64,000 nucleotides of DNA from the NCBI GenBank assembly GCA_004299845.1, contig CP036201.1:1860001-1924000 (forward strand). The letters run 5' to 3'. Under the pieces are notes generated by a model, which did not search any database, was not told the origin of the DNA, and was given only the letters and a program-made list of their open reading frames with translations. Numbering within the stretch: position 1 is the stretch's first letter; every line of letters starts with the position of its first letter. Both the position numbers and the translations under genes were made by a program. This DNA comes from Verrucomicrobia bacterium S94. Its GTDB lineage: Bacteria; Verrucomicrobiota; Kiritimatiellia; Kiritimatiellales; Pontiellaceae. This document shows positions 39,030-57,936 of this stretch, one piece after another.

Positions 39030-41414
39030 TCATGGCAGACGCACTCTGACCTTAAAAAATCCCTGATCAGTATCCACCAACTCATTCTCCTGAATCATGC
39101 CTTCAGTCGTTGTTGAATTCGTACGAACAGCACTCCATCCCGTTGCACCTTCCGCTAAGTTGGTTGAAAAAAACACGGTATAAATGCGCCCACTGATAAC
39201 GTTGTAAGAAAGCGAACTCTCATTCAGACTCATGGAAAAATATGAATACCGGTCAACGGGATCAGTTCCTGCAATAAACTCATCCATATTGCGCATCCCA
39301 TCGGCATCATCATCCGCATCGCTCATAGCACAGCTTATATTATTAAAATAAGTTGTTTCCCATGCATCCGGTAATTGATCTGCATCCATGTCATTCGCAG
39401 CAACTAAAGGATTTATAGCATAAACAGCGTAAGCATATTCATTCCAGGTCATCCCTTCATCCGCTTCAAAGTGCAAAACACTACGGGTTTTACCGGCAGT
39501 ATATTCAAACGGGACATAAAATTCCCCTTGTACCCACCGAGTCACCTCATTCGAAAAACCGGCATCAGCAAAGTACCATTCACCGACCTCCGCATCATCC
39601 ACAAAAACACGCGCCTTCTGCCGACCACTTCCGGCATCAAAAATACGGCGGATCAATAATCCGTCGTTCATTGAAGGAATATTCACTGCAAACGTTGAAC
39701 CGGTACAAATATACCCCGTATTCTCCAGAAAAACGTCCTGATGATCTCCCGTAAAAGAGAAGGTATTTGTAACACTTCCCTCATTGGATCCATAACACTG
39801 ATATTCAGATAACGCCTCATCTTCGGCATTTCCCAGATCAATGTTTCCGCAGTGTGATAAACCGGAGGACTGCCCAAGCTGCTTATAATAATAGACCACC
39901 GAAGACATCCTGCAGCCCACTTCATTCACCCTCCCGTGCTCCATCCCGATTTTAATAGAAGAATTAAAGGGAATTACATCCCCCACATGAATCCGATACG
40001 CACTAATCCAGTTATTCTCCGCACTCATACTAAAAGGATTGGAGCGTATTGGCGTCCCATGATACGGCAATAAATCGGAACCCTGATTATAATACCACCC
40101 GCAATTAAAATAGTCCTCATTCCCCGTTCCATGCAATTGAGGGGTCAGGCATCCATCAATATAAAACCGCTCATCCCCTTCCAGAAAAGCCAATCCGTTA
40201 TTTCCTGATTTTTCGCCCCCCGTACTTGCCAGATTAATGCCGACATAATGCCCTCGGCCCACTTCATTCAAAGCAATAAAATCGGATGTGATAATGCCGT
40301 TTGTATACGAACCGACCGCATGATGAGCCATAAAATAACCGGCGAGCTGTGAAGAGAACTGATTTGTTCCGACCCCAATGCGGAACGGAACATTGCCCAC
40401 AGCAGAACTTCCTCTGTTTTCCAAAGAGATCGTTGCTGAATTCCAATAAGGCATCGGGAAATAACAATAACAGGTCCGATTACTCATCCCGACCATCAAA
40501 CCGTTTACCGACACCTGTCCGAACCCGGATCCGAAAAATTCTCCCAAAGGCACCGACCACGAAGATTCGATCTGCCCATCCCAAGTGACAGACAACCAAA
40601 GATTTGACCAGCTCTGCTTATTAATAACCGGCATCTCAAACACCAAACTGTTTACGACACCGCTTCCTTCTAAATCAGCAACTAAACAGTTCGTATCCGC
40701 CCCAAGCGTCAACTCGCCCGCATAATATATATTTTCATCCGTCGGCTTCGGGTCCTGTCCAACGGCATTAAACTGAGCCAGAACCGATTCATTATCTTCA
40801 GTCCCCGTCCATGAAACCACTTCATCAGAAGACGAAAATCGATGATAGGTTATATTATAATACATCCAATACGTATCATCACTCCATGCCTGACGCATCT
40901 CCTCACCGGGAATATCATCCAACGTAATACGACACCGAGTCGCATATGCAATCGGAACATAGGAGTACAACCCACCGCTCGAGTCTTTTTTATCTCCCAC
41001 AAACGGTTTTATAAAAGGATCAACGGTTCCGGAAAACAGATCCGCTATAGAACACGAAAAACGGGGAACAACATCATCATCGATATAAATTTTTACCCAG
41101 GTGTTGGATGCATAATTTTCTTTATAATCTGGATGAGGGCCACCATGTGTCATCCAAATTCGATAAATACACCCCGCCCCAATCTCATCAAAAATCACGT
41201 AGTCGCCCTGATCATCCCGATAAAGCCAGCTATTGCGATCTGCATTTCCCCCATTCCGCTCAAAACTTGAAACCTGATGGGCAGACACACCACGACGAAT
41301 TAAAGGCAGTTCTTCAATGTGCTCCAAGGCGGCCAAACCATAATTTCCAATCCCCGCCCAGGCACCTCCTAACAAAGTAATCCACGCCGAAAAAACACAA
41401 AACACCTTCCCCAT
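39030..41414 (-). CDS. Secreted DUF2961 (GH172-type) protein
   Basis: A 794-residue protein with signal peptide (to about residue 20). The catalytic DUF2961/GH172 domain spans about 35-600: FDEIGAGCIYRIWMTHG, the acidic motif HGTGNEDYFNCGWYY, and GMEHGRVNE. A short calcium-binding thrombospondin-3-like stretch (DMDADQLPDAWE, DADDDADGMRN) follows, then a beta module with SGRIYTVFFSTNLAEGATGW..GFFKV. Known GH172 enzymes act on fructofuranoside or D-arabinofuranoside linkages, so a furanose in the locus polymer is possible. A hydrolase within a biosynthetic locus may trim or release the polymer. Confidence 0.82.
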   Translation of the reverse strand: MGKVFCVFSAWITLLGGAWAGIGNYGLAALEHIEELPLIRRGVSAHQVSSFERNGGNADRNSWLYRDDQGDYVIFDEIGAGCIYRIWMTHGGPHPDYKENYASNTWVKIYIDDDVVPRFSCSIADLFSGTVDPFIKPFVGDKKDSSGGLYSYVPIAYATRCRITLDDIPGEEMRQAWSDDTYWMYYNITYHRFSSSDEVVSWTGTEDNESVLAQFNAVGQDPKPTDENIYYAGELTLGADTNCLVADLEGSGVVNSLVFEMPVINKQSWSNLWLSVTWDGQIESSWSVPLGEFFGSGFGQVSVNGLMVGMSNRTCYCYFPMPYWNSATISLENRGSSAVGNVPFRIGVGTNQFSSQLAGYFMAHHAVGSYTNGIITSDFIALNEVGRGHYVGINLASTGGEKSGNNGLAFLEGDERFYIDGCLTPQLHGTGNEDYFNCGWYYNQGSDLLPYHGTPIRSNPFSMSAENNWISAYRIHVGDVIPFNSSIKIGMEHGRVNEVGCRMSSVVYYYKQLGQSSGLSHCGNIDLGNAEDEALSEYQCYGSNEGSVTNTFSFTGDHQDVFLENTGYICTGSTFAVNIPSMNDGLLIRRIFDAGSGRQKARVFVDDAEVGEWYFADAGFSNEVTRWVQGEFYVPFEYTAGKTRSVLHFEADEGMTWNEYAYAVYAINPLVAANDMDADQLPDAWETTYFNNISCAMSDADDDADGMRNMDEFIAGTDPVDRYSYFSMSLNESSLSYNVISGRIYTVFFSTNLAEGATGWSAVRTNSTTTEGMIQENELVDTDQGFFKVRVRLP

Positions 41415-41564: not shown

Positions 41565-42581
41565 TCATTCAGAGGATATTTCGTACGTTTTAATTCCTAA
41601 AACCTGAAGCGTCGCCAGCCAGAGAAACACCGGAACAATATAAAGGTACCGTCGCCAGAGTCGTTTAGGATCCTGACATAACCGATAAAGCCACTGTAAC
41701 CCGGAATTTTTAATCCATTCCGGCGCATCCTTCTGCAATCCGGCATGAATAGGAAACGCCGCTCCAACCCCAAGCATAATGCCGGCCTCCAAAGGGTGTT
41801 CGTTTAACCCGGAACGATGAGGCCTATAATTTGGATCAGACAGACGGGGATCATGACTCGACATGAATTTTTCCTGCTTGGGCGTCGAAAGTCCTACCCA
41901 GAAAAAATCAGGTTTACATTCAGAAACGATTTTCCGGAGCTCCTCTTCCTCCCCCTCATTCAAGGCTCTGAATGGAGGCGCATACATACCGACAATCTGA
42001 ACCCCGGGAAAACGGGTTTCCAGGTTTCTTTTCAAGCGGACCAACACCTCCTCGGTTGCGCCATATAAAAAATGGGTGCGCAATCGAGGAGACTTCATCA
42101 TTTCATCCTCCACAGCAGCACCAACATCCAACCCCCCCGTTTCATCCTGAGAGGGATAGAGGTAGTTCGATTCCAACGCCCCCGAACCTCGCTTAACGCC
42201 TTCAGCTTCAGGCTTTAACCCTTGCCGATCCATCCCCTCACAACTCCGGCCCGACACAGGATTAGCAGTCGCCTCAAAAACCCTAAGCATTAAATCCGGC
42301 CCATACACCCGGCCCATTTTTGTAAACCCCTGTTCCCGGCCCATCCAAACCGTTGGCATACCATCCGGCACCGTTAAAAAAGATCGGTTATGGATTTTCC
42401 GCAACTCAGGATCACGTTGCGACTCAATCACCCCATGCACTCCGGTCACACAAACATATCCCTTCTGACCCCGAGCCCGGGCAACCAACAAATCCTGAAC
42501 CGCATCATTCATGTTGAGAGAAGACACCCCGACACCCAACACATTAGTACGTCGCCGCTCAGTATGTTCTTTATCTAACAC
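41565..42581 (-). CDS. WecB/TagA/CpsF-family glycosyltransferase (GT26) with two in-frame inserts
   Basis: A 338-residue GT26 enzyme that transfers a sugar onto a lipid-linked acceptor. Family blocks: VTGVHGVIESQRDPEL, VPDGMPTVWMGR, RVYGPDLML, HFLYGATEEVL, MYAPPFRALNEGEEEEL, VGLSTPKQEKFM, GVGAAFPIHAG. It starts at GTG. Compared with the second GT26 at 44771 it carries about 60 extra residues (107-168, bases 42078-42263) and about 17 extra residues near 245-262. Both inserts look polar and unstructured and may derive from repeats. Activity may still be kept because the core blocks are intact. Confidence 0.85.
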   Translation of the reverse strand: MLDKEHTERRRTNVLGVGVSSLNMNDAVQDLLVARARGQKGYVCVTGVHGVIESQRDPELRKIHNRSFLTVPDGMPTVWMGREQGFTKMGRVYGPDLMLRVFEATANPVSGRSCEGMDRQGLKPEAEGVKRGSGALESNYLYPSQDETGGLDVGAAVEDEMMKSPRLRTHFLYGATEEVLVRLKRNLETRFPGVQIVGMYAPPFRALNEGEEEELRKIVSECKPDFFWVGLSTPKQEKFMSSHDPRLSDPNYRPHRSGLNEHPLEAGIMLGVGAAFPIHAGLQKDAPEWIKNSGLQWLYRLCQDPKRLWRRYLYIVPVFLWLATLQVLGIKTYEISSE

Positions 42582-42611
42582 ACAAACCCCATTCCAAAAT
42601 ATACAGCCGAT

Positions 42612-43580
42612 TCACCCATCATACTCATGCAGCCATCGAACCGTTTTTTCCACGCCTGCTTTCAGGCTGAAAGGCGGCTCTCCGAAAACATCAAAGGTTT
42701 TTTCAATCGGAGTCAGATAATCCTGTGTCATACTTTCATACCGGGAAGAAGTTAAAGCAAACTTTCTACCCGTAACAGCCGTAATCACATCCCCGACCCA
42801 TCCTATCAATTGCAAAAAAAACCGAGGAACTTTTCGCGCCCTTTTACCGGTCAACTGTAACGAAAATTCATTCACCCAGTCATAAATATCTTCAGCTCGG
42901 TCGCCCACATAAAATACAGCTTTATGCACCTGAGCCTTCGGAGCTTTAAAAATTTCATCCATCTGCCAAATAATATTTCCCACATATCCATAGCAACGGA
43001 TAACAGGCTTCCCCCCCGGATGCAGATAAAGCCCCTTTCGAATTATCCTCCAGGCTTCGGAACGATAGCGCATATGCCAAGGCCCCCAAATATTTTCCGG
43101 ACGGATCAACGTCCAGATGCAATTCAACCCCGCCTCCCGTGTCAACTGCTCCGTAATAACCTTACTTTGGCCATAAACCGTATGCGGACCATAATCAGTA
43201 TCATTCTCAGGAAAATGTTCCGGGCCACAGACATATTGAGAAGAAGTAATAATTACCCGTTCAATACAAGAGCATGCCTTGATCGCCTCCAGCACATGCT
43301 GTGTACCTGTAATATTTACATCATACTCCACATGAACATCCACATCCTCAACACAATCCGTCCGGGCCGCCAAATGAATCACATGCGTCGGAGCAAATGC
43401 AGCAACAGATGCAGAAAGCATCGAGGCATCCATAATATCCACACGTTTCCAGAATGCCCGATCTTCAGGATTCAAAGGTTCCGCAATATCCAAATTCAAA
43501 ATGGCATCCGCCGACTCCCGATAAAAATGAATCAGGTTCGTTCCGATAAATCCCGAGCCTCCTGTCAAAAGCAATCTCAC
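42612..43580 (-). CDS. NAD-dependent epimerase/dehydratase (extended SDR)
   Basis: A 322-residue SDR. Rossmann motif GGSGFIGTNLIHFY, HLAARTD, ITSSQYVCGPEH with the catalytic Ser, and YGQSKVITEQ with Tyr-x3-Lys. The RPENIWGPWH block is typical of nucleotide-sugar epimerases; a hydrophobic segment near 250 (FFLQLIGWVGDVITAV) is less usual and suggests membrane contact. It starts at GTG and overlaps the upstream GT4 gene by four bases. The nucleotide-sugar substrate is unknown. Confidence 0.85.
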   Translation of the reverse strand: MRLLLTGGSGFIGTNLIHFYRESADAILNLDIAEPLNPEDRAFWKRVDIMDASMLSASVAAFAPTHVIHLAARTDCVEDVDVHVEYDVNITGTQHVLEAIKACSCIERVIITSSQYVCGPEHFPENDTDYGPHTVYGQSKVITEQLTREAGLNCIWTLIRPENIWGPWHMRYRSEAWRIIRKGLYLHPGGKPVIRCYGYVGNIIWQMDEIFKAPKAQVHKAVFYVGDRAEDIYDWVNEFSLQLTGKRARKVPRFFLQLIGWVGDVITAVTGRKFALTSSRYESMTQDYLTPIEKTFDVFGEPPFSLKAGVEKTVRWLHEYDG

Positions 43581-44737
43581 CCAATCACCTCTTTATAAAC
43601 CTGCATCATCTTCGAATAAAACGCTTCAAATTCAAAATTCATCTCAAACCGCTTACGCCCGGCTTTCCCCATGCGAATTCGAAGCTTTTCATCAGTCAGC
43701 AGTTTCCCCATCGCCTCAGCCAGAGCATTTGAATCCCTGGCCGGCACCAGAAAACCGGTTTCACCCTCAACGATCTGCTCAGCTGTCCCCCCGATATCTG
43801 TTCCTATAACAGGAAGCCCCATGGCCATCGATTCAATCACCACGCCGCCAAAAGGCTCCGGCAAACCAGACGGCACCACCGAAACATCCAGCGCGGCATA
43901 CGCCGCTTTAATATCCTCAACATCCCCCGTCAGAATAAATTGATTCTCAACACCCAGCCGAACAATCAATTCCTCCAACTGTTTCCGGTGCACCTCATTC
44001 CCCGGAAAAGGACTGCCGATAATCAGATAGCGTACATGTGGAAATTCGGGTTTAAGTCTGGCAGCAGCTTCAACTAAATACTCCTGGCCCTTACGCTCAA
44101 ATTTAATGCGGCCTACCACACCGACCGTCAAATCATCTTTCAAATCAAAACGTTCTCGAAAAGCCCGAATCCGATCCTCGGAAACAACAGAGAACTCCGC
44201 CAAAGGAAACCCATTGTAAATCGTTTGAACCTTATGGGCAGCCGCACCTTGAAACTGATCCGCCACCGCATTCGAAACCGCAATCACACGCCCCGCCAAC
44301 AAACCGATCAGCTTTTGATACCCCCACCAAAGCCTACCGAATTCAGAAAAAGATTCCCGCATGTGCCAAACCACCGGAACCCGGCAAATACGCCCTGCTA
44401 AAGGAGCAATAGGCAACAAAGCCGCATTAACATGAATCACATGGGGACGAAATTTTCGAATCATCTTCATGCAGAACAAAAATGAAGGAAGAAAGCCTGT
44501 CAAGAATTTCAATTTCCCCCGTAGCGAAGACCATGTTGCGCGCTCGATGAATTGATTGCGTATCGAGTGAAAAACGGGAATCCCCGCGCTAGCCAGGCAT
44601 TCCGATAAAGGTCCCTCATCCCGCAAGATAACGTGAACATCGTGCCCTTCCTCTTGTAACCGAGACGACAGTCTCAGCAAAGATCTGGAGGCTCCGTAAA
44701 GGTCACATCCATTATGAAAAAAGAGAATTCGCATCAT
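43577..44737 (-). CDS. GT4-family glycosyltransferase
   Basis: A 386-residue GT-B enzyme. The N-terminal domain begins ILFFHNGCDLYGASRSLLRL; the donor domain shows VGVVGRIKFERKGQEYLVEAA and the EPFGGVVIESMAMGLPVIGTDIGGTAEQIV block with the E-x7-E pair. The sugar and linkage cannot be read. Start has two ATG codons in tandem at 44737 and 44734. It overlaps the SDR gene by four bases, so the two are coupled. Confidence 0.9.
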   Translation of the reverse strand: MMRILFFHNGCDLYGASRSLLRLSSRLQEEGHDVHVILRDEGPLSECLASAGIPVFHSIRNQFIERATWSSLRGKLKFLTGFLPSFLFCMKMIRKFRPHVIHVNAALLPIAPLAGRICRVPVVWHMRESFSEFGRLWWGYQKLIGLLAGRVIAVSNAVADQFQGAAAHKVQTIYNGFPLAEFSVVSEDRIRAFRERFDLKDDLTVGVVGRIKFERKGQEYLVEAAARLKPEFPHVRYLIIGSPFPGNEVHRKQLEELIVRLGVENQFILTGDVEDIKAAYAALDVSVVPSGLPEPFGGVVIESMAMGLPVIGTDIGGTAEQIVEGETGFLVPARDSNALAEAMGKLLTDEKLRIRMGKAGRKRFEMNFEFEAFYSKMMQVYKEVIG

Positions 44738-44770
44738 TCAAAATTCAGTCCCAAATATTCGGAACACAAA

Positions 44771-45631
44771 TTATGCACCAGAAGACCTCCGGAAAACGGG
44801 AAAAACTGTTGGAAGCAGATTTTTACAAATTACTAACCAGATAAAACGCGGATTGCCTATTAAATACCGACGCCATAAACGCCTGGGCTCTATACAAAGC
44901 CGAAACAACCACTCCAACCCACAAGACATCATCCAACGTGGAGCCTGACGAATATTTCCTGCATGAAAATTAAAAGCCGCTCCAACGGCCAACAAAGCAT
45001 TTGCATTGAGCCTAGGAGCAAACTTACCAACCCAATAATCCTGTTTGGGCGTACCTAAACCACACCACACAATATGAGCCCCTGACTCATTGATCATATT
45101 AACGACACTCTCCTCCTCTTGATCTGTCAAAGGTCGAAAAGGTGGAGAATACATTCCCGCAATCTTAAGCTGTGGAAACTGACGAAGCAAATTAGCTTTC
45201 AGCTTCTCCAAAACATCATCCGTAGCTCCATAAAAAAAATGGGAAATATTTTTTCCATTGGTTTTCCTGCAAAGATCCAGCATGAGATCTGGACCATACA
45301 CACGTTTACTCTTGTTCAGACCATAAAAATGAGCCATCCAAACCAACGGCATCCCATCGGTAGTCGCCATGCCCGCATTATTAATAATTTCCGCAACCTC
45401 GGGGTGATCATATGCATACACACATGTATCCGCTGTACAGAAATTCACATGATGCCTGACTCCTGATTCAATCCAACCCAAAACTCGATCACCTGCGGAC
45501 TCCAACGTCATCGAAGAAAGAGAAACCACTCCTACAGGGAAACGATGATAACCCTCCGCATCTCGGAATGGAGTTTGTTTTCGCTTCTTTTTCATAAAAG
45601 ACATTTTCCACACCCTAATTAATTTCAGCAT
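44771..45631 (-). CDS. WecG/TagA-family glycosyltransferase (GT26)
   Basis: A GT26 enzyme of up to 286 residues with the normal, uninterrupted family layout: CTADTCVYAYDHPEV, TTDGMPLVWMA, RVYGPDLMLDL, HFFYGATDDVLEKL, MYSPPFRPLTDQEEE, GLGTPKQDYW, AVGAAFNFHAG. The start is uncertain: 45631 or an internal ATG at 45604 (MSFMKKK) with a weak GTGGAAA. The basic N-terminus and the C-terminal hydrophobic stretch fit peripheral membrane binding. Two GT26 genes in one locus suggest two different lipid-linked acceptors or an ancient duplication. Confidence 0.88.
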   Translation of the reverse strand: MLKLIRVWKMSFMKKKRKQTPFRDAEGYHRFPVGVVSLSSMTLESAGDRVLGWIESGVRHHVNFCTADTCVYAYDHPEVAEIINNAGMATTDGMPLVWMAHFYGLNKSKRVYGPDLMLDLCRKTNGKNISHFFYGATDDVLEKLKANLLRQFPQLKIAGMYSPPFRPLTDQEEESVVNMINESGAHIVWCGLGTPKQDYWVGKFAPRLNANALLAVGAAFNFHAGNIRQAPRWMMSCGLEWLFRLCIEPRRLWRRYLIGNPRFIWLVICKNLLPTVFPVFRRSSGA

Positions 45632-45640
45632 ATCGACTTC

Positions 45641-46858
45641 TTAATCGATAGTCCCTCTATATACTTGCCTCTCATCAGGTCTCCTCATAGCCTTCTTATA
45701 AATCCCCACCAACTGATGATAATTAGCTCCAGCGGAATACTTTGCCTCAAAAAGTAAACGCGCAGCTCTACCCATCGCCTCCATCTCACGAGGATTTTCT
45801 AATGCGAACACCAATTTCTCACCCAAAGATTGAACATTCCCTGCCTCAAAAAGAAGCCCAGTTTTCCCATCTTGAATCAACTCTTCAATAGCCCCAATAC
45901 GGCTGGCAATAACCGGCACCCCTTTTCCATAAGCCTCAATGGCTACCCTCCCGAATGTTTCATACCATTCTGAAGGAAAGATGAGACATTTTGATTCTCC
46001 AATTATATTCAACGTTTCCTCCGCATCTAACCGCCCCATAAACTTGATCGATTTTAAATCAACCTTCATTTCGAGTGCCTGCCGGTCGGGGCCATCTCCA
46101 ATAATAACCAACTCATACCCCTGCAACTGTCCCTGTGCAGAGAGCGTCTCCCAGGCTTCGAGTAAAGTATTCACTCCTTTTTCCGGCGAAAGCCTCCCGA
46201 CAAAAACGAAACGTTTTTTATCCGCATCTCCCCGCCCAGGATCCGGGTTGACAAAATTTGGTTTAACAATTATCCGCTCTTGTGGAATTCCTGCCTCTAA
46301 CAATTTGGTTTTAACAAATGCAGATAATGCGATGAAATAGTCTACTTTTTTGGAAAAGCTACGCAAAATATGATGGTGTGTGAATTGCATGCTGGCGACT
46401 ACAAATGATGCCAATTTACTGTCGCGATAGCATGCGTACTTTATCCCCGGCCAAGCAAAAGTTTTATTAAAGCAGAGCTCACAAATCTTACCTTCTCTAT
46501 GAAAAAAAGCATTCAAACAAAATAAACGATAGTTTCGAACCGATTGCACAACGGGCACTCCGCACTTTTTTGCCGCGAAATAAACTGATGGTGAAATAAG
46601 CGGGAAAAAATTCTGAACATGCATGACCTCAATCTGCTGTTCAGAAATAATACGCTTGATCTCTCGATACGACGTAACCGACCAAATGGTCCGGAAGGCA
46701 ATGCGGAAACGTCCAATTCGGCCAATTGAATCATTATGCATGCTATACAGCTCCACAGAATGTCCATGCTCCTTCAACAAGGCGACTTCGGACTCCATCG
46801 AAACATCTTCCCCACCCCGTTGCTGATAATAATTATGAACCATTAAAATTCGTATCAT
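45641..46858 (-). CDS. GT4-family glycosyltransferase
   Basis: A 405-residue GT-B enzyme. N-terminal glycine loop YYQQRGGEDV, HVQNFFPLISPSVYFAAKKCGVPVV, then a Cys-rich stretch (CLNAFF, CELCF, YACY) common in this subgroup, VGRLSPEKGVNTLLEAW and SEWYETFGRVAIEAYGKGVPVIAS with the E-x7-E pair. The four cysteines at about 124-150 could bind a metal. Sugar and linkage unknown. It follows the GT2 gene by 69 bases. Confidence 0.9.
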   Translation of the reverse strand: MIRILMVHNYYQQRGGEDVSMESEVALLKEHGHSVELYSMHNDSIGRIGRFRIAFRTIWSVTSYREIKRIISEQQIEVMHVQNFFPLISPSVYFAAKKCGVPVVQSVRNYRLFCLNAFFHREGKICELCFNKTFAWPGIKYACYRDSKLASFVVASMQFTHHHILRSFSKKVDYFIALSAFVKTKLLEAGIPQERIIVKPNFVNPDPGRGDADKKRFVFVGRLSPEKGVNTLLEAWETLSAQGQLQGYELVIIGDGPDRQALEMKVDLKSIKFMGRLDAEETLNIIGESKCLIFPSEWYETFGRVAIEAYGKGVPVIASRIGAIEELIQDGKTGLLFEAGNVQSLGEKLVFALENPREMEAMGRAARLLFEAKYSAGANYHQLVGIYKKAMRRPDERQVYRGTID

Positions 46859-46927
46859 TCAAAACCTTCAATTTTTTATATGTACAGGGCTTCACCTGTA
46901 TGTATTGCGAATCCGTAAAGAACTTTC

Positions 46928-47833
46928 CTAATCAGCTCGATAGTGACTGTGAATGCCCCACGCCTTAGAGCGAGCCCCATAAACTTTGCGCAATACAGAA
47001 ACGGGAACCAATGTTCGGACAAATGCGATCAGAAGAAACTTCACATATGGTGTTACAAACAAAATACCCCCCCACGGCCCCCAATGTCTTAAATAAAAAG
47101 TGAACATTGGACCAAATGAGCGAGAACTTTTTTTCCCAAAAAAACCGTTCCAAATTTTAGCGGGCGGAATATCACCAAGCAACCAAGACTGCTGCTCATC
47201 GCTCAAGTTATCATCATTTTCAAATCGAGCCGTTCCTACAACAAAAGCTTGAATCCCCTTTCGCCGTGCCCTTAGCCCATAATCTGCATCGGCGGGAGCC
47301 ATTGGTATGCGCTTGGCATCGAGATATCCGATCGCATCAACCACTTTGCGGGGCAGGCAAACCGCATTCCCACCAAATGCATCACAGGGAACAACATCGC
47401 TTTCAGAACAAGACAAAAGCCTCAATCCCAACCATGTTTTTTTATGCCCCCCATAATAATGTCCCGAAGGACAAAAAGCCTGACCTACCGCAATAACATC
47501 ATGCTTCAAACTGTATTTATAAAGGGCTGATATTGCATTTCCTCTAGGCACACAGTCATCATTCAACCAAAGCAGATACTCAGCACCAAAATCATAAGCA
47601 TATTGCATCCCCATATTGATGCCACCCGCCCACCATAAGTCGCCATTCCCCTCTAACAAAATTACCTGAGGAAATTGACTGCATATCGCATCCGCAGTTC
47701 CATCCGTTGATTGATCATCCACCACGATGACATCCGCCCAGTCAAAAATCCGACATTCTGCCAGGTGATTCAAACAGGTCAAAGTAACTTTAACACGATT
47801 GTATACAGGGATTATTATGGCCACATTTTTCAT
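46928..47833 (-). CDS. GT2-family glycosyltransferase (rhamnosyltransferase-like)
   Basis: A 301-residue GT-A enzyme. IIIPVYNRVKVTLTCL, VVDDQSTDGT, GDLWWAGGINMGMQYA, LLWLNDDCVPR (the D-x-D-like site) and CDAFGGNAVCLPRK fit the GT2 branch that includes rhamnosyltransferases. A hydrophobic C-terminal helix (WGGILFVTPYVKFLLIAFV) would hold it to the membrane. dTDP-rhamnose genes lie 15 kb away, which suits this role. A decayed relative of its N-terminus lies at 48648-48791. Confidence 0.88.
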   Translation of the reverse strand: MKNVAIIIPVYNRVKVTLTCLNHLAECRIFDWADVIVVDDQSTDGTADAICSQFPQVILLEGNGDLWWAGGINMGMQYAYDFGAEYLLWLNDDCVPRGNAISALYKYSLKHDVIAVGQAFCPSGHYYGGHKKTWLGLRLLSCSESDVVPCDAFGGNAVCLPRKVVDAIGYLDAKRIPMAPADADYGLRARRKGIQAFVVGTARFENDDNLSDEQQSWLLGDIPPAKIWNGFFGKKSSRSFGPMFTFYLRHWGPWGGILFVTPYVKFLLIAFVRTLVPVSVLRKVYGARSKAWGIHSHYRAD

Positions 47834-47842
47834 ACCATTCCC

Positions 47843-48595
47843 TCAAGATTCATTCGTGGAGGAAAAAGCAAACTCATCCCGTAATCGACGATACAGTTCC
47901 GTATCCAACAAATTCGCCTTTTCGATTTGCTTGCGCTCCTCATGAGAAAGTTGTCCAGGTTTTCCACAGCCGACATTAAGCCGTTGTTCTCCTAACGGAC
48001 CACGAAAACCTGCCATCATGCGCAAACGATCCATAAAAACATCCAATTGATCAAGAAATCCAACAAGATCATAAGTTTCTTTTATTACCCTAAACGCTTT
48101 CTCTACAGCATCGCTTGGCGCCGCTTCGGCCTCATCTGCTTTCAATCCTGAAAAATGAGTCACATACCAATTTCGGTGGGCGTCAGACCGGACGTACTCC
48201 TCTAATGAACAAGTAATCCCATGTTTATCTCTAGTATAGTAATAGTGAGAAATCACACGTTCTACAGGCTCCCTGAACACGGTTATCTTCAGGCAATCGG
48301 GATGCGCCTCTCCAACCAAATAATGTGCATTATGGCCAAAAACCAGATCATATCCATATCGTCTCGACTCCGATAATTCCCGAAAGCCCCTTACCGAATC
48401 ATCTCCATTACGATCCGTTGGATATCGCTTACGGTATGGATAATACTGTTTCAAGGAATCCCGAAAAGTCGTACCTCCGCACTTTGGCAGATGCTCAAAC
48501 AGCACTTTTCGCGCTCGCGAAGAACGATAAAAATCATATCTGAACTCCGCACATAACTCCTTAAAAAACCTTCTCCTGAAACAAGAAAACCTCAC
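47843..48595 (-). CDS. Sulfotransferase family protein (carbohydrate 2-O-sulfotransferase-like)
   Basis: A 250-residue protein. The 5'-phosphosulfate loop for PAPS is HLPKCGGTTFRDSL near residue 35 and the 3'-phosphate site is VFREPVERVISHYYY near residue 105. This arrangement is that of the Sulfotransfer_2/heparan sulfate 2-O-sulfotransferase-like group. There is no signal peptide, so it acts in the cytoplasm on lipid-linked glycan or precursor. It starts at GTG after AGAGG. It suggests that the polymer made by this locus is sulfated. Confidence 0.85.
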   Translation of the reverse strand: MRFSCFRRRFFKELCAEFRYDFYRSSRARKVLFEHLPKCGGTTFRDSLKQYYPYRKRYPTDRNGDDSVRGFRELSESRRYGYDLVFGHNAHYLVGEAHPDCLKITVFREPVERVISHYYYTRDKHGITCSLEEYVRSDAHRNWYVTHFSGLKADEAEAAPSDAVEKAFRVIKETYDLVGFLDQLDVFMDRLRMMAGFRGPLGEQRLNVGCGKPGQLSHEERKQIEKANLLDTELYRRLRDEFAFSSTNES

Positions 48596-48647
48596 AAAAA
48601 CCTCTCAAAGTATACCGCTCGCCAACTAACGTTCAGCTCCAACACAA

Positions 48648-48791
48648 TTACAGCATACGCCACAGCAACCTTAATAACCGTAAGGATAAAAATATACCCT
48701 CCGCCAGACATTCTAAATAATTTAGCATCACCTTGGCCCGATTGTGCACCGGAATGACAAAGGCATTCTTTCTTAAAGATTCACCCTTCAA
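48648..48791 (-). pseudogene. GT2 glycosyltransferase N-terminal remnant
   Basis: A 48-codon frame from TTG 48791 to the stop at 48648 reads NAFVIPVHNRAKVMLNYLE and LAEG, matching about 13 of 24 positions of the GT2 protein at 46928 (VAIIIPVYNRVKVTL..LAEC). After about 34 residues the similarity ends. It is the leftover of a second GT2 gene between the sulfotransferase and GT4 genes. Confidence 0.75.
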
Positions 48792-48799
48792 AAAACCTT

Positions 48800-49945
48800 T
48801 TACCGCACCGGGTCCTTCAGTAGCTCAATAATTTCCCCGGCAGCCCGATCCCAACTGGCCTCTCCGTGAACTAAAGCTAACCCAGCCAAAGACATCCTTT
48901 CATACAGATCCTTATCCAACAAAATCTTTTCCATTGCTTTGGCAGCGGCGATGGGGTCCAATGGATCAACAATATAGCCAGTTTCCCCATCGATAACAGC
49001 CTCTGGAACTCCTCCATGATCTCCGCCGACCACGGGCTTCCCACAGGCATTCGCCTCTAGGAATGTGAGTCCAAACCCCTCAACATACGCCCCATCTTTT
49101 CGGGATAGCATGATGTAAAGTGAGGATGCATGATACCAGAGAGCAATCTCTTCGTCCGGAACATAGCCAGTAAAAACCACGGATTCCCCGAGATCCAAAC
49201 GAGCGACCAGCTCTTTCAGCCGGACCTCTTCCGGCCCAGTCCCCGCGATGACCAAAACTGCATCAGGGACGGAGGTGCGCAATTTGGAAAAAGCGATGAT
49301 CGCCTGATCCACGCCCTTTCTCGGAACCAGACGGCATAGCGAAAGAATAATCCGTTTCCTTTGCAACTGATATCGAGCAATCAGAGCCTCAACGCGCTCT
49401 CGGGGCACATCAGAAAATTGTTCTGCATTAATTCCATTTTTAATCACAACCGTCTTGTCCGCGTACTGAGGGAGACCTTCAACAATAATTTTATGCGTGT
49501 AGTCACTAATCGCAATAATCCGCCATGCGCGGCGATAAACCGGCATGGCAAATAGGCGCAAAAAAAATGAATCGTTTTGATCTAGAAACTCTGTGCCATG
49601 AATGGTGATCATCATTTTCCGTCGAAACAAAAACGACAGCAAGGCCGTCACCATCCCAGACCGCCACTCAGCGGCCCACAAAACCGCATCACGGTCCAGC
49701 GACAAGCACTTGATCATTTGAATTGCTCTGAAAAAATGACGGATAACTGGAATGCGCTGATATGCCCTGTGAACGGGAAACGGCAATGTTGCATCATACG
49801 CGTCATCCATCTTCGTTTTTCGCGCCGCGACGACCCGCACTCGCACACCACGTCGAACAAGCGCCGAAGCAAATCCCAGACAATAACTCCCCACTCCACC
49901 GCTTATCGGCGGAAACTCATTGGTTTGAATCAGGACTCCGTTCAT
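48800..49945 (-). CDS. GT4-family glycosyltransferase
   Basis: A 381-residue GT-B enzyme. FPPISGGVGSYCLGFASALV at the N-terminus, ITIHGTEFLD, VIKNGINAEQF, SLCRLVPRKGVDQAIIAF and EGFGLTFLEANACGKPVVGG with the E-x7-E pair. The subgroup resembles PimB-like mannosyltransferases. The acceptor and sugar are not determined. The remnant GT2 lies 8 bases downstream. Confidence 0.9.
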   Translation of the reverse strand: MNGVLIQTNEFPPISGGVGSYCLGFASALVRRGVRVRVVAARKTKMDDAYDATLPFPVHRAYQRIPVIRHFFRAIQMIKCLSLDRDAVLWAAEWRSGMVTALLSFLFRRKMMITIHGTEFLDQNDSFFLRLFAMPVYRRAWRIIAISDYTHKIIVEGLPQYADKTVVIKNGINAEQFSDVPRERVEALIARYQLQRKRIILSLCRLVPRKGVDQAIIAFSKLRTSVPDAVLVIAGTGPEEVRLKELVARLDLGESVVFTGYVPDEEIALWYHASSLYIMLSRKDGAYVEGFGLTFLEANACGKPVVGGDHGGVPEAVIDGETGYIVDPLDPIAAAKAMEKILLDKDLYERMSLAGLALVHGEASWDRAAGEIIELLKDPVR

Positions 49946-50040
49946 ATCACACTTTTTTCTCGCCAGTTATCAGATGGCAAACAAGGTTAACGACTACTGT
50001 AGATTGAACTCCAGCACACCGCAAAGCCACACGATATTCT

Positions 50041-50757
50041 TTATGCTGAAATAGCTTCATACTTTTCAGCAAGATTGGAAACAGCCTCCACGGACGCTTC
50101 AACTTCTCGCTTACGAAGAAAAGCGAAAACCAGATAAACACCCAACATAGAAAAAGTCATCATAGGCAGGTTTCTTTGGAAAAAACCGGTGTACCAAAAG
50201 TTAATATTGGCGGAGTAAAAATTGAGGATGCACCACACCATCCATCCCTCCAGCCGGTGACTTTGTTTATGTAAAATGGAGACCGATAAAATAAAGGTCG
50301 CAAGCTGAGCGATGCCCAACAAGACCGCCCCGACAATGCCCACCATATCCAACGCCGAAGCCAGCCCCGAGTGCCACAGCTGGGTGACCTCAAAATACAA
50401 GAATTTATCTCGAGCCACCGATTCAGCCATCATCCAGAAATCACCCACCTGGCCGCGTCCAAACCAAGGGTGCTTCCAAAATTCATTCGCAAAAAACCGC
50501 CGAACCAACTCGGCTCGCCAGTCAATTCCGCCCATCGCAGAAATAGCCACCTTGGTTTGATAAACCCCAGGCAAAGAGCCCAACACACGCTGAACAGGCA
50601 GGGGCAGAATTTCGATAGAATCGCCCAACCCGATCGCCAGCCCCCAAATCCCCGCTCCGCTTATCAGGCTCATGATAGCCCATTTTTTACAATAAATCCC
50701 AAAAAAGACCAAGATCACAACCGCAAAGCGAATGAGGAAGCCACGATAACCACTCAT
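50041..50757 (-). CDS. O-antigen polymerase (Wzy-like), C-terminal half
   Basis: A 238-residue membrane protein with about five spans. It contains the large periplasmic loop of O-antigen polymerases (WRAELVRRFFANEFWKHPWFGRGQVGDFW, with HSGLAS further on) that matches the Wzy_C pattern. Its ATG overlaps the stop of the upstream half (TTTTAATGAG). One extra G in the G7 tract at 50769-50775 would join both frames into a single protein of about 512 residues, the usual Wzy size. As written it is a separated C-terminal half, perhaps made by re-initiation. Confidence 0.8.
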   Translation of the reverse strand: MSGYRGFLIRFAVVILVFFGIYCKKWAIMSLISGAGIWGLAIGLGDSIEILPLPVQRVLGSLPGVYQTKVAISAMGGIDWRAELVRRFFANEFWKHPWFGRGQVGDFWMMAESVARDKFLYFEVTQLWHSGLASALDMVGIVGAVLLGIAQLATFILSVSILHKQSHRLEGWMVWCILNFYSANINFWYTGFFQRNLPMMTFSMLGVYLVFAFLRKREVEASVEAVSNLAEKYEAISA

Positions 50758-51578
50758 TAAAACCAGTACCCCCCCAGCGCAATCCAGATTAAATAGCGGA
50801 AAGGTAACCCGGCACGAAACTTGACGTCTCGATGCGTCACATATTGGGCAATTACAAAGAGTGTCAAATAGATTCCAAACTCACGAAAACTGGCTAGCCG
50901 CAACACCGAATCAGCGGTCCCGCGCAACACATCCATCACCTCAAAGTTAATGTCCGTCGTAAAATAATAGGTAATAAAGGCTGTTTGGGGACTCACATAA
51001 TTCAAGCCATCAATCAGCGTCGCAAATATGGCGGTACCCAGGGCTACATGAGGAATTTTATTGAGCTTTATCAGGGGAATTTTACCTTCGAAGAGAAGCC
51101 AACCAAATAACAGCAACAGAATATATTTGGCCGCATACTTCAAACCGCCTGCAGGTCCATAATTGTAGCCAGAAAGAATCCCTTTTTTCTTTAAGATGGT
51201 AATAATCACAAAAATGGAAAAGACACCCACCAACGCACCTATTCCGATCCGGGCTGAAGGGGGCAAATCATCGGGACGCTGCTCCACCGTTTGCCGTAAC
51301 GCAACGCTCAGAAGAGCAATGCCCACCGCCGCCGCAACCGCATAGTAGACATAGGGAACATTTTGAACAAAAGGGGAACCGCCTTCATACCACATCATGC
51401 CAAAAACAAAAGCAGGTAACATCGTTTTGAAGCGGAACGCCAGATATACCGCAAAAATAACCACCAACGGCAAAATTGCCATCACAATGTTTCCGCCAGC
51501 AAGGGTACGCGCTAACAGCATGGCTAGGACTAAACCACCCAACACCACCAGAAACTCAACAAACTTTCGATCTAACAT
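50757..51578 (-). CDS. O-antigen polymerase (Wzy-like), N-terminal half
   Basis: A 273-residue membrane protein with about eight hydrophobic spans (from VEFLVVLGGLVLAMLLA) and no own catalytic loop. It ends in WIALGGYWF right after a G7 tract. With eight G the frame would go on as LGGVLVL and into the downstream half. N-terminal halves of Wzy polymerases look like this. So the gene is either phase-variable, a fresh pseudogene or a one-base sequence error. Confidence 0.8.
   Translation of the reverse strand: MLDRKFVEFLVVLGGLVLAMLLARTLAGGNIVMAILPLVVIFAVYLAFRFKTMLPAFVFGMMWYEGGSPFVQNVPYVYYAVAAAVGIALLSVALRQTVEQRPDDLPPSARIGIGALVGVFSIFVIITILKKKGILSGYNYGPAGGLKYAAKYILLLLFGWLLFEGKIPLIKLNKIPHVALGTAIFATLIDGLNYVSPQTAFITYYFTTDINFEVMDVLRGTADSVLRLASFREFGIYLTLFVIAQYVTHRDVKFRAGLPFRYLIWIALGGYWF
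50769..50775. repeat. G7 homopolymer at the wzy frame break
   Basis: Seven C on the plus strand (G7 in the coding strand). It lies a few codons before the stop of the N-terminal Wzy half. G8 restores one continuous frame through the C-terminal half, consistent with slipped-strand switching or with an assembly error. Confidence 0.85.
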
Positions 51579-51716
51579 ACAAAATTCCCGACTGTTATTT
51601 TAACAGATGTATTAAAAGTATTTCTCAACAACAAATTTGAACACATAGCATTGAGCTAAGGAAAATACAAAAACATGCTGAACATAGTTCATCGCTTGAG
51701 GGCAGAAACGTCGGCA

Positions 51717-52778
51717 TTACTCTTCCGCAGAACAGGAACTTAACAGTTCAACAGCGGCCTGATACACCTGTCCGGGTGTTACCGCAGTAATGCAATGCGC
51801 ATGCTCCATCATGCAACAATCGATGCAGGGCGCCATGGCTTTTTCAGGCCGGCAAATTCGATGCGGCACACCATACGGACCAAACCGCTCCGGCGCGTTG
51901 GCGTGGTTTGGATCACCGCCCTGTACATGGCACGAAATCTCCACCACCGGAACACCTACCGCAGCCGCCATGTGCATCGGCCCCGAATCATTCCCAATAA
52001 ACAAAATGGCATCTTTCATCAATGCAGCTGTCTCTAATAACGAGAATTTTCCAGCTGCAGAAGTCACATAAGATCCCGTGAGTTTAATCAAAGCCTCCGC
52101 TACTGCAACATCATCGCCAGCACCAACTATCACAAACTTCAGATCAGGACTTCGTGCTTTAAGTTGCCGAACTACGTTTGCGTAATAATCCACAGGCCAA
52201 GACCGGCGTCCTATTCGAGCCGCATTACAGCCAACTATGATATAAACCTCTCCCTCTAACCCCATAATTTCTTTAGGCTTACCTGCATTGTCTTCATTAA
52301 TCTCAACCGAATATTCGTATTCAGAAGGTTCCGCCACCTCGAATAAGTTCATCATTTGAAGAACTTCATGCACTCCGGACTCGACAGGCTTCTGGAGGGC
52401 ATACATCCAATTCCATCCCGAATCATTCCACGAAATTCGATGTTTTGTGAGCGATAGCAAACAAAGAAGTTTATCGCCCAAGGTTCCTTTGCGTCGAGGC
52501 AGATAGACTCGATCATAAAAAATTAGATTGTTTAAAAGTATCCATTTTATCGTACGAACTGAGGCGCTCACCTTTTCCAAGCCCGTTAATTTTCGGTCAG
52601 GCCGGTCAAAAACCAACACGCGATCGACACAAGCAACAGTCTCTAACCATCCCTTCGAAAACGACGAAACTACGACAGTAATAGAACAGCTAGCATTCTG
52701 TTGCTTTAACGCAACTAAAACCGGAACTAATAAGATTAAGTCCCCTATTCCATCAGGTTTTATAACTAATATTTTCAC
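51717..52778 (-). CDS. GT9-family glycosyltransferase (LPS heptosyltransferase-like)
   Basis: A 353-residue GT-B enzyme of the ADP-heptose:LPS heptosyltransferase family. KPDGIGDLILLVPVL at the N-terminus, GCNAARIGRRSWPVDYYANVV, and FIGNDSGPMHMAAAVGVPVVEI are diagnostic. The tail has a Cys/His cluster (CIDCCMMEHAHC) seen in a number of GT9 proteins, possibly metal binding. It starts at GTG, overlapping the stop of the acetyltransferase gene (GTGA), so translation is coupled. The sugar may be heptose or another. Confidence 0.88.
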   Translation of the reverse strand: MKILVIKPDGIGDLILLVPVLVALKQQNASCSITVVVSSFSKGWLETVACVDRVLVFDRPDRKLTGLEKVSASVRTIKWILLNNLIFYDRVYLPRRKGTLGDKLLCLLSLTKHRISWNDSGWNWMYALQKPVESGVHEVLQMMNLFEVAEPSEYEYSVEINEDNAGKPKEIMGLEGEVYIIVGCNAARIGRRSWPVDYYANVVRQLKARSPDLKFVIVGAGDDVAVAEALIKLTGSYVTSAAGKFSLLETAALMKDAILFIGNDSGPMHMAAAVGVPVVEISCHVQGGDPNHANAPERFGPYGVPHRICRPEKAMAPCIDCCMMEHAHCITAVTPGQVYQAAVELLSSCSAEE

Positions 52779-53443
52779 AATGTTCTCTTACTGCACTGAA
52801 CAACCCTTGCTGGATTTCCCGCAAGAACAGAACCTGCCGGATAGTGCCCTTTTTTAACAACTGCACCCGCACCGACCACACAACAATCTCCCAGCTCAAC
52901 CCCTTTTAGAATGATAGCGCGAGAGCCTATAAAACATTTTTTTCCGATCTTTACTGCAACAGGATTAGTTTTATCTACGCGACACCAATCATCGTCTTTC
53001 CATATGTGAAAATCATTGTCCATAATCATCGCACCTGCACCAAAAAGGACTCCGTCTTCGATATGGATTTCTTTCGCCGCACAAATACTGGTAGCACTAC
53101 AGCCAACATTATTTCCGATATAAATTTTTGCCTGCTCTAGTATTGTCCGGATAATGACCGGTTGATTACAGCCTAGCGGATTCGAATTCACCGAACTACG
53201 CAATGTCAAATTATCTCCAATCACAATACTGGAATCTTTATAGAGTGAAATTAATGGTCGGCCGCAATAGAGTCCGCCTTTACCCACCCAAACCCCTCTA
53301 AGACGCAACATAGCACTAAAACACCAAGAAAAAAGTAAACGATATAAGGATATGGTTTTACATTTAGCAACACGAAAAATTCTAAATAAAAACTGCATTA
53401 CAAACCTTCTACAAGCTTTCATTACACGAAACACATTCAACAC
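52775..53443 (-). CDS. Hexapeptide-repeat acetyltransferase
   Basis: A 222-residue protein with a left-handed beta-helix of hexapeptide repeats: IVIGDN, IYIGNNVGCSATSICAAKEIHIEDGVLFGAGAMIMDN, VKIGKKCFIGSRAIILKGVELGDCCVVGAGAVVKKGHYPAGSVLAGNPARVV. The DNDFHIW block holds the catalytic His of WcaF/MAT-type O-acetyltransferases. The N-terminal 45 residues are basic and hydrophobic. It probably O-acetylates a sugar of the repeating unit. Confidence 0.87.
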   Translation of the reverse strand: MLNVFRVMKACRRFVMQFLFRIFRVAKCKTISLYRLLFSWCFSAMLRLRGVWVGKGGLYCGRPLISLYKDSSIVIGDNLTLRSSVNSNPLGCNQPVIIRTILEQAKIYIGNNVGCSATSICAAKEIHIEDGVLFGAGAMIMDNDFHIWKDDDWCRVDKTNPVAVKIGKKCFIGSRAIILKGVELGDCCVVGAGAVVKKGHYPAGSVLAGNPARVVQCSKRTL

Positions 53444-53452
53444 CAGGAATTA

Positions 53453-54577
53453 TTAATTTGCATCGAAAATAACGCCTCTAATACGTTCAACATAGTCCAA
53501 GAAAACGTTATCCGAAAGCGCAGTTAATCGATCGCGCTCAGCATCACGAGCCTTCAACATTCGCTCCAGATCTGAGCAGATTTGCTGAGCATCCGCATCT
53601 TTCACATAGTATACTGGCATGCTTAACTCCTTCACCATAAGCATGCGAGAATCTGTACCAACCGCAACTGATGGGATACCCATTCCTGCAAAAGCAACCG
53701 CAGCGTGCATCCGATTAAATACGCCTGCAATACCCAGCGCTGCCAAATTAAAGTATTCCTCTACCGTTCTAGGGAAAAAACGAGGAATATCAGGGAATAG
53801 CTGGCCAGCTAGATGGAACTCTTTTTGATCATGACAAATACAGGCCACTGGATGACTTTTTCGTACTTGCTCAATAATTGAACGTACCGTTGTTTCCCAT
53901 CTTTTAGTATCTATATTCTGACCAAAGTCAAAATGCCCGCCGCCCTGCATATAGTTAAAAAAAACAAACTTAGCATCTGCAGTTTTTTTCTTATACTTTC
54001 GACCGGCAAGAAATGCCGAACAGATCTGTTGCTGCGCCTCAAGTTGCATCTCCTCAAGCAATTGCTTTGAAAGGCGATCACGCACCATGGTCAATGCACA
54101 GGCTTTTGTAATTTTTTCAATAAAATAAGCATCATTAGTATTTAATTCTTTGTGATTTTCAGGAATTCTCTCCCACGGATAACATGAGCCAGCAGCAAGG
54201 TTCAAAACAGGTATACGTTTGCCTAACCGACAAAGGATATGTTCCCAAATAATTTTCGCCCATTCAGCCTGAGAGCATTTGTTAAAAAAAACAGGTGCTC
54301 CACACTGAATGACTAAATCACAGTCTTCAAAACGACTTCCATGAAATCGATTCATCACCCCATCAAGGAAGCGACTTGCTGTTACACGGCCTTTGGGCAA
54401 ATACTTCACCCAATATAATGGATGAAAACGCGGATAAATATCACCTGGAACGTGTTTGTTTACATACGTAATTTCCAGATCTTTGGAAATCGCTTCTCCT
54501 AATGCCAACAGGATGCCTTCACGAATGAAGTCATCCCCAATATTAGTATCCACCGTTGTAATCAGTCCTACTTTCAC
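53453..54577 (-). CDS. Polysaccharide pyruvyl transferase family protein
   Basis: A 374-residue protein of the polysaccharide pyruvyl transferase (CsaB/PS_pyruv_trans) family, which adds pyruvate ketals to glycans. Starts with VGLITTVDTNIGDDFIREG; VIQCGAPVFFN and the C-terminal FNRMHAAVAFAGMGIPSVAVGTDSR, with the family's R-x-H motif, are recognisable. Together with sulfation it would make the polymer acidic. It lies between the flippase and acetyltransferase genes. Some family members have other roles, so the assignment is by family. Confidence 0.82.
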   Translation of the reverse strand: MKVGLITTVDTNIGDDFIREGILLALGEAISKDLEITYVNKHVPGDIYPRFHPLYWVKYLPKGRVTASRFLDGVMNRFHGSRFEDCDLVIQCGAPVFFNKCSQAEWAKIIWEHILCRLGKRIPVLNLAAGSCYPWERIPENHKELNTNDAYFIEKITKACALTMVRDRLSKQLLEEMQLEAQQQICSAFLAGRKYKKKTADAKFVFFNYMQGGGHFDFGQNIDTKRWETTVRSIIEQVRKSHPVACICHDQKEFHLAGQLFPDIPRFFPRTVEEYFNLAALGIAGVFNRMHAAVAFAGMGIPSVAVGTDSRMLMVKELSMPVYYVKDADAQQICSDLERMLKARDAERDRLTALSDNVFLDYVERIRGVIFDAN

Positions 54578-54630: not shown

Positions 54631-55977
54631 TTAGTCGACCGCCCGCTTACGCACTGCGGAAGCGATGCTCCGCCATCCCGTAAAAATGGCGCGCCACTGG
54701 ATCGGCACAAGAAACCGATAAGGGCGAATTACGTGATGCGAAAAGAAGCCCGCACAGGCCACTGAAAGCACCATCGCTATCGCCGAGCCATGTATACCCC
54801 AGACCGGAATCAGCCACCAATTGAGACCTATGCTGACCACACACCCCATTAAGTTGCGCAGAATAACCCAGTTTTGAAGCCCTTCAATAATGATTAACTG
54901 GCCTGAGGCCGCCGCCAGCGCCATAAAAATGGAGCGCCATGCGGTAATTTGCAGCACCGGAATCGCGGATGCATATTCTCGCCCATATAGCACCAGAATG
55001 GCCGGATAGGCCAGAAGACTCATCGCAACGGCCATTCCGATTCCGCTCCAAACTATTAAATCCATAAACTGCTGCCGTTTGATGAGATAGCGCGTGCTAT
55101 CGGCTTCATGTACCTTGACAAGTATGGGGGTAATCGTTTGCGCAATCATCATGGGAATAAAGGTTGAAAATTCGGTCAATTTGGCAGCGGCAGAAAACTG
55201 TCCAAGCGCGGCATTGTCGAGCATGTTCCGAATCATGATGGCATTTATTTTTTGATAAACGACGATGGCGGCGCCCGAAAGCAACAGGGGAAACGAGGCT
55301 CGAATGAGCATTCCGGCGGTGGCCCGATCAAATCGCCAGGCCATGGAGTCGGGGGCTTTTTTGCGATAGGAGAGAACATATCCACCGGCCACGAGAACAA
55401 TATCGAAGGCGCTGGCCGCAATAAACCAGGTAAGAGAACAGTGTGCCCACAGCAACACCACTTTAATAAGAGCGCCCAGCACCGTTCTGGCAATCTCTGA
55501 CTTGACAACATATTCGTTCAGAATGATGGAGGTGAAATAGTTTCTGATCACATTTAAGGAGCTAAAGATGAGCGAGACGGAATAGACCATTACCATGGTA
55601 AAGGTGTATCGGTCTGACTCAAACAGGATCAGGGTGGTTAGAATGAGGACCAGCGCAATACTGGCAAAGAGTAGGCGCAGGCCAAAGGCAGTGCCAAGCA
55701 GTGCGCCTTTATCAGCCTCGTGTTTGGACAGCTCGCGAACCTCGATTCCATCCAGCCCAAACGTCGCTAAAATGGAGAAGAGCATCACATAGCTGATGAC
55801 ATAATTCATCAGACCAAATTGTTCCGGCCCTAGATAGCGGGCCACCAAAATGCCTACCAACAAACCACTGGCAATTTGAACAACCTTTCCGGAAACGGCC
55901 CAATAGACATTACGGACCACTTTTTCCCGATTACCCGAAAGCTTTAGTATCTTAAAAATGCTATTAATTAATCTCAT
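54631..55977 (-). CDS. Oligosaccharide flippase (Wzx-like)
   Basis: A 448-residue integral membrane protein of the MOP/polysaccharide-transport superfamily with about twelve to fourteen spans. SGKVVQIASGLLVGILVARYLGPEQFGLMNYVISYV is the classic start. The middle LSGAAIVVYQKINAIMIRNMLDNAALGQFSAAAKLTE matches Wzx. It moves the lipid-linked repeat unit across the membrane. It is the first gene of the 23-kb locus. Confidence 0.92.
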   Translation of the reverse strand: MRLINSIFKILKLSGNREKVVRNVYWAVSGKVVQIASGLLVGILVARYLGPEQFGLMNYVISYVMLFSILATFGLDGIEVRELSKHEADKGALLGTAFGLRLLFASIALVLILTTLILFESDRYTFTMVMVYSVSLIFSSLNVIRNYFTSIILNEYVVKSEIARTVLGALIKVVLLWAHCSLTWFIAASAFDIVLVAGGYVLSYRKKAPDSMAWRFDRATAGMLIRASFPLLLSGAAIVVYQKINAIMIRNMLDNAALGQFSAAAKLTEFSTFIPMMIAQTITPILVKVHEADSTRYLIKRQQFMDLIVWSGIGMAVAMSLLAYPAILVLYGREYASAIPVLQITAWRSIFMALAAASGQLIIIEGLQNWVILRNLMGCVVSIGLNWWLIPVWGIHGSAIAMVLSVACAGFFSHHVIRPYRFLVPIQWRAIFTGWRSIASAVRKRAVD

Positions 55978-56655: not shown

Positions 56656-57936
56656 TTAGTTTTCCGGCACCGGTTTTTCCTTTCCGGTGCGGCGGTCGGT
56701 GCAGACACCGATGATTTCCGGGACGGATCCGCCGGCGCGGATGACCTGAATCCAGTCGCCGATCCGCAGATCAAGAGCCCGCAGGTGATTTTCATTATGC
56801 AGTGTGGCAGAACGCACAGTGGCACCGTTCATTTCTACCGGCTCGAAATGCGCTATCGGCGTCCATTTCCCGGTTTCACCCTGCGACCATTCAATCCGTA
56901 ATAATTTCGTCAACTTCGGCGGGTGTTTATATTTTCGTGCCAGTGCTCCTCGGGGATGGTGCGTGGTGGCTCCCAGCTCTTCATAACGGTCAAGATCATT
57001 GACTTTGATCACGATGCCGTCGGTTTCATAAGGCCATTGTGAGCGTCGGCCATTCAGACGGGTGATTTCACCGGGAACCTGATCCGCCGGAACAGCAACC
57101 GATTCAATAGTCGGCAATCCGAATGCCCGCAAACGTTCCAGAGCCTTCTGATGGGTTTCCGGCCGGCCATCGCCTTCGATCCATTCAAAGATGCGTAAAC
57201 TCAGACCGCGCCGCGAAATTTCAGCATAATCGGCAAGCCGCAGGGTTCCCGCGGCGGAATTGCGGGCACTTTTCAGTCTGGGCTGACCCTGTGCAGCTCT
57301 TCGGTTATTCAGTTTTTCAAATGCGGCCCGCGTTAGAAAAAGCTCACCGCGCACCCGGAGCTCCCGCGGTTGTTCTGCAAGCACGGTCGGAATACAGCCG
57401 GCCGCCAGAGCAGCCCGCGTCACATCCTGTCCTTTTTCTCCATCGCCTCGGGTCAGGGCCCGGACCAGCACCCCATTCTGATAGTGGAGTACGATGGTCA
57501 GTCCATCAATCTTCGGCTCAATACAAAAATACTGCCGGGTTCCACAGGTGTCGATAAATGCAGCCACTTCCTCGTCGGTATACGCCTTTTTGAGGCTCAA
57601 TACCGGCTTTTGATGCAGAACGGTATTACGCGGGTCTACAGCCCCGACCCCGCCCTCTCCTGCCAACTCCGGATAATCCGCAATCAGCTGTTCGTAGCGA
57701 CGGCGTAATTCATCATAGGCTTCATTGCCCATGATAGGATCCGCCCGGTTGAAATAGGCCTCGTCCGCCTGCGCCAGAATCGCCCTAAGATATCCGGCCT
57801 GCACCTTAATTTCCTCCGGAGCGGCAACGCTGAATCGGGCGAGGCAGAACAGCATTATAAGCAACTGAAAACAGCTTATGATTTCAGTCCGGGGTTTCCC
57901 CGGGAAATACCGCAGAACCAACATATGCATGATCAT
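56656..57936 (-). CDS. LigB-like NAD-dependent DNA ligase with signal peptide, lacking C-terminal domains
   Basis: A 426-residue protein. A hydrophobic leader (ISCFQLLIMLFCLARFSVAA, about residues 20-39) looks like a signal peptide. An N-terminal Ia-like part with PIMGNEAYDELRRRYEQL is next, then the adenylation domain with the active-site Lys in CIEPKIDGLTI, TRGDGEKGQDVT, ARNSAAGTLR and an OB domain (ATLHNENHLRALDLRIGDWIQVIRAGGSVPEI). It stops after the OB fold, so the zinc finger, helix-hairpin-helix and BRCT domains of LigA (about 670 residues) are absent. E. coli LigB also has a leader and lacks BRCT. Whether it works outside the cytoplasm is open. Confidence 0.85.
   Translation of the reverse strand: MIMHMLVLRYFPGKPRTEIISCFQLLIMLFCLARFSVAAPEEIKVQAGYLRAILAQADEAYFNRADPIMGNEAYDELRRRYEQLIADYPELAGEGGVGAVDPRNTVLHQKPVLSLKKAYTDEEVAAFIDTCGTRQYFCIEPKIDGLTIVLHYQNGVLVRALTRGDGEKGQDVTRAALAAGCIPTVLAEQPRELRVRGELFLTRAAFEKLNNRRAAQGQPRLKSARNSAAGTLRLADYAEISRRGLSLRIFEWIEGDGRPETHQKALERLRAFGLPTIESVAVPADQVPGEITRLNGRRSQWPYETDGIVIKVNDLDRYEELGATTHHPRGALARKYKHPPKLTKLLRIEWSQGETGKWTPIAHFEPVEMNGATVRSATLHNENHLRALDLRIGDWIQVIRAGGSVPEIIGVCTDRRTGKEKPVPEN

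Follow-up and report, generated by a model that had tools for sequence, protein, structure and literature searches.

The question raised by this locus is whether a run of seven G that interrupts a putative surface-glycan gene of Verrucomicrobia bacterium S94 is a phase switch, as the preliminary description had proposed, or has another origin. The split is present in the assembled sequence of the window, the 64,000-nucleotide stretch that we analyzed. On the minus strand, ORF1 (273 aa) and ORF2 (238 aa) have one base in common, position 50757, which is both the last base of the ORF1 stop codon TAA (50759–50757) and the A of the ORF2 start codon ATG (Table 1). The minus-strand sequence at the break is GCG CTG GGG GGG TAC TGG TTT TAA TGA GTG, with nine bases between the G7 run (C7 on the plus strand) and the TAA of ORF1. 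The coding frame switches at this run, and a −1 frame change there fuses ORF1 and ORF2 into one open chain of 512 residues; the overlap, the position of the run and the length of the fusion had been given correctly in the preliminary description. Of 7080 places picked at random in long window ORFs, 14 (0.2%) have an alternative frame free of stops for at least 725 nt. Because a frame is open so far this rarely, the arrangement of ORF1 and ORF2 is not due to chance.

Table 1. Features of the split gene and of the glycan region around it (window coordinates; scores against the profile of relatives).
Feature	Position	Strand	Score
ORF1, N-terminal half of a Wzy/O-antigen-ligase-like membrane protein	50757–51578	−	22.9 bits
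Short out-of-frame tail YWF at the end of ORF1, immediately 3′ of the G7 run		−	
G7 run on the coding strand, the frame break	50769–50775	−	
TAATG, ORF1 stop overlapping ORF2 start	50755–50759	−	
ORF2, C-terminal half with PF04932-like region	50041–50757	−	72.1 bits
Undecaprenyl-phosphate sugar transferase (PF02397)	32628–34061	−	
Second O-antigen ligase/polymerase, intact, 722 aa, PF04932 + TPR-like	34147–36315	−	
Glycosyltransferases (GT1, GT2, GT9, two WecG/TagA), pyruvyl transferase and acyltransferase	41565–54577	−	
Wzx-type flippase (PF01943/PF13440)	54631–55977	−	

To establish how many genes are present, we compared the two frames with relatives in the class. We searched 288 genomes of the class and detected the family in 59; the search model took in the joined chain, and the frames of the relatives are independent of that. 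The gene is one open frame with no internal stops in all 58 other genomes and lies in two pieces in the S94 genome only. Eight other genomes of the class contain ORF2 homologues, mostly as single frames of more than 500 residues; one homologue has 354 residues and adjoins a contig end. The residues across the G7 run (GGVLVLMSGYRG) align with GGLALVMLSGFRS, GVILLMLSGFRR and similar stretches in relatives, the alignment has invariant columns before and after the break, and the start of ORF2 coincides with the conserved SG(F/Y)R motif of the family. Against a profile of 29 relatives that excludes S94, the score is 108.0 bits for the joined chain, compared with 72.1 for ORF2 and 22.9 for ORF1, and the ORF1 match is collinear with profile positions 8–263. 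In a null set of 59 other membrane ORFs, the highest score, 22.2 bits, belongs to a true PF04932 protein and the second is 12.0. ORF1 alone was not detected with a smaller relatives-only profile of seven sequences, so the N-terminal half is divergent. Since the split occurs in one of 59 genomes and the joined chain outscores both halves, sequence comparison identifies ORF1 and ORF2 as one gene, and the earlier proposal of one Wzy-like protein lying in two ORFs holds, with the break at the G7 run.

The same comparison bears on a two-part protein, in which re-initiation coupled at TAATG, with the G-run as ribosome-binding site, would yield two halves that assemble. The TAATG overlap and the G-rich stretch about 11 bases upstream of it fit such a mechanism, which the preliminary description had also suggested. 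However, none of the 58 relatives has two separate genes, and the break sits within a predicted membrane helix; therefore, ORF1 would be left without that helix. Re-initiation is the least probable of the explanations weighed here, and relatives lend the proposal no support.

Regarding its family, the joined protein is distantly related to the O-antigen ligase/polymerase superfamily (PF04932). Of the eight aligned family members, six match PF04932, and the window protein gives a weak match at 50317–50772, beginning inside the G7 run, of 22.7 bits, which is under the curated cut-off of 31.7; hmmscan of the joined chain gave no PF04932 match. Homology extends over the length of the protein, and the gene stands in a flippase and glycosyltransferase setting. 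The joined chain is polytopic, with about ten hydrophobic segments. The PF04932 proteins of the class are collinear with it and share the conserved SG(F/Y)R, LP..QR, R, G.G and HSG/HNG positions, whereas the S94 protein differs from these one-piece proteins in its low identity (15–19%), its score below the cut-off and its split at G7. No relative was found among solved structures.

The setting is a Wzx/Wzy-type surface-polysaccharide region, in which the PF02397 sugar transferase likely starts the glycan pathway. Because the split gene sits among this transferase, a flippase, glycosyltransferases and a pyruvyl transferase, its product likely polymerizes or ligates a lipid-linked glycan, ligase and polymerase being indistinguishable by sequence here. 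The WecG/TagA-type glycosyltransferase at 41565–42581 has about 55 residues, inserted in frame, that are absent from its paralogue at 44771–45631; the DNA of the insert (about 42070–42275) is unique in the genome and contains a G7 run. A short NAD-dependent DNA ligase (56656–57936) with adenylation and OB domains only and a signal-like N-terminus lies amid the glycan genes, and a DUF2961 protein of 794 aa (39030–41414) marks the edge of the region.

Slipped-strand phase variation would have the G7 run gain and lose bases in the population and so turn a glycan polymerase on and off. A G/C run of seven lies in a surface-glycan gene whose frame is broken exactly there, and the locus thus resembles the Campylobacter phasome, where a G-run within a surface-glycan ORF sets the frame (PMC6321876). 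Seven is also the lower limit for G/C contingency tracts in that survey, which counted poly-G tracts from G/C ≥ 7; however, tracts of 9 and 10 predominate there (PMC6321876). The S94 run is short by comparison and is not conserved at the site: all eight relatives that were read lack a G-run there, their longest having 2–4 G. G7 runs are also rarer in the window than chance would give: there are six, and dinucleotide shuffles predict 17.4. G/C runs of eight or more number about 13 in the whole genome. A search for a second assembly of the species in genomic and viral contig collections, with ORF2 and with a run-spanning pattern, gave no match. The G7 tract carries none of the testable marks of a switch: it is not kept in relatives, and frame breaks in this genome are not confined to genes in which a switch is plausible, as described below. 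Phase variation at this gene is thus improbable, and the possible switch suggested in the preliminary description is not upheld.

The absence of the run from relatives also argues against ribosomal −1 (or transcript) slippage on G_GGG_GGG, which would produce some full-length protein from the present sequence. The phase of the run is suitable (CTG GGG GGG TAC), but the slippery site is not conserved and no stable RNA structure that could stimulate a programmed −1 frameshift lies downstream of the run (z = −0.84). Such slippage is highly improbable, although less so than re-initiation.

To place the break in a wider context, we looked for frame breaks at G/C runs in 1.26 Mb of the genome including the window, plus the regions around G/C runs of at least eight. 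Overlapping genes and G-rich ribosome-binding sites also give frame changes; therefore, breaks were confirmed by profile matches on either side of the run or by a position in mid-domain, and two genus-mates were used for comparison. G/C runs of 6–9 break thrC, flgI and genes for a GalA-type beta-galactosidase, a glycosyltransferase, a patatin, the receiver domain of a CckA-like kinase and a tyrosine autokinase, among others. The threonine synthase gene thrC is split at a G8 run (L080:17316–17323, genome 2357316–2357323), its fragments matching profile positions 10–70 and then 76–335, and it is the sole copy above the cut-off of its family. The only flgI, for the flagellar P-ring, is split at a G7 run (L073:14487–14493, about genome 1938487), with fragments matching profile positions 1–98 and then 100–342. 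FlgI is whole in two genus-mates, and two other genus-mates lack it.

The excess concerns G/C runs. Among clear-coding G/C runs of at least seven, the frame changes at 6 of 22 in S94 and at 0 of 21 in the two genus-mates (p = 0.012), and for runs of at least six the counts are 14 of 111 and 2 of 129 (p = 0.0006); these p values treat runs as independent, and the counted changes include a few natural gene junctions (such as L058, L074, L100 and probably L084). At A/T runs of at least six, frame changes are alike in S94 and the two genus-mates (p = 0.61). In a homology scan of 176 kb, the only frame break lies at a G6 run; the 243 A/T runs of at least six have none. Most G7 runs and some G8–G9 runs sit in intact frames in the S94 assembly, so errors are not universal. 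One IS4/5-type transposase (L080) with a frame change at an A8 run presumably belongs to a known programmed kind, which it resembles, and was left uncounted. Two identical sequences (L087:11640 and L096:5899) change frame at an A9 run and may be a mobile element that uses programmed slippage.

A mutator was considered as the cause of these breaks and rejected: MutS and MutL are both intact, so no mutator is evident, and their presence also counts against phase variation at the Wzy-like gene. Against such a switch stands, in addition, the breakage of thrC, flgI and other genes without a surface-glycan role; such breaks in housekeeping genes also set the S94 case apart from the Campylobacter phasome (PMC6321876). 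A broader form of the same idea is that G/C runs of 6–9 are truly variable in S94, in a genome-wide contingency state that extends to glycan and flagellar genes and to threonine synthase, although the mismatch repair genes are intact, and that the genus-mates do not have. We regard this as very unlikely, somewhat more so than a switch at this gene taken by itself.

A true one-base indel, fixed or recent, would leave the strain with a Wzy-like gene that is broken. Real indels are commonest at homopolymers, and a second PF04932 protein is encoded intact in the same region and may cover part of the role. However, many like breaks occur in one genome, including that in thrC, and each would need a separate explanation. 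A true indel is accordingly unlikely, and it ranks with phase variation among the minor alternatives.

An error in the length of the G-run in the assembly, which splits one gene, is the probable explanation. An assembly counting error is most likely because many unrelated genes, including thrC, are cut alike at G/C runs. Gene-breaking indels at homopolymers have been amply documented for long-read consensus assemblies (PMC9262707), and errors of this kind are favored here because the S94 breaks show the same pattern: they are at homopolymers, are blind to gene function and differ between the assemblies of related organisms. Unlike the published case, the S94 excess is at G/C and not A/T runs and is read from the assembled sequence (PMC9262707); true slippage would produce an identical pattern. 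With a miscalled run, the gene would only appear split; the run in the real chromosome would differ in length from that in the assembly, and the gene would encode one polytopic membrane protein of about 512 residues in the O-antigen ligase/polymerase (Wzy_C) superfamily. The intact protein would then act on a lipid-linked glycan, by polymerization or ligation.

These results carry a caution, as a surface-glycan gene split at a poly-G run mimics a contingency locus, and a check of runs across the assembly shows that the breaks are blind to function. Annotation of the split gene as a contingency locus is unwarranted, and S94 gene calls near G/C runs of at least six, among them those of flgI and thrC, are best regarded as uncertain.
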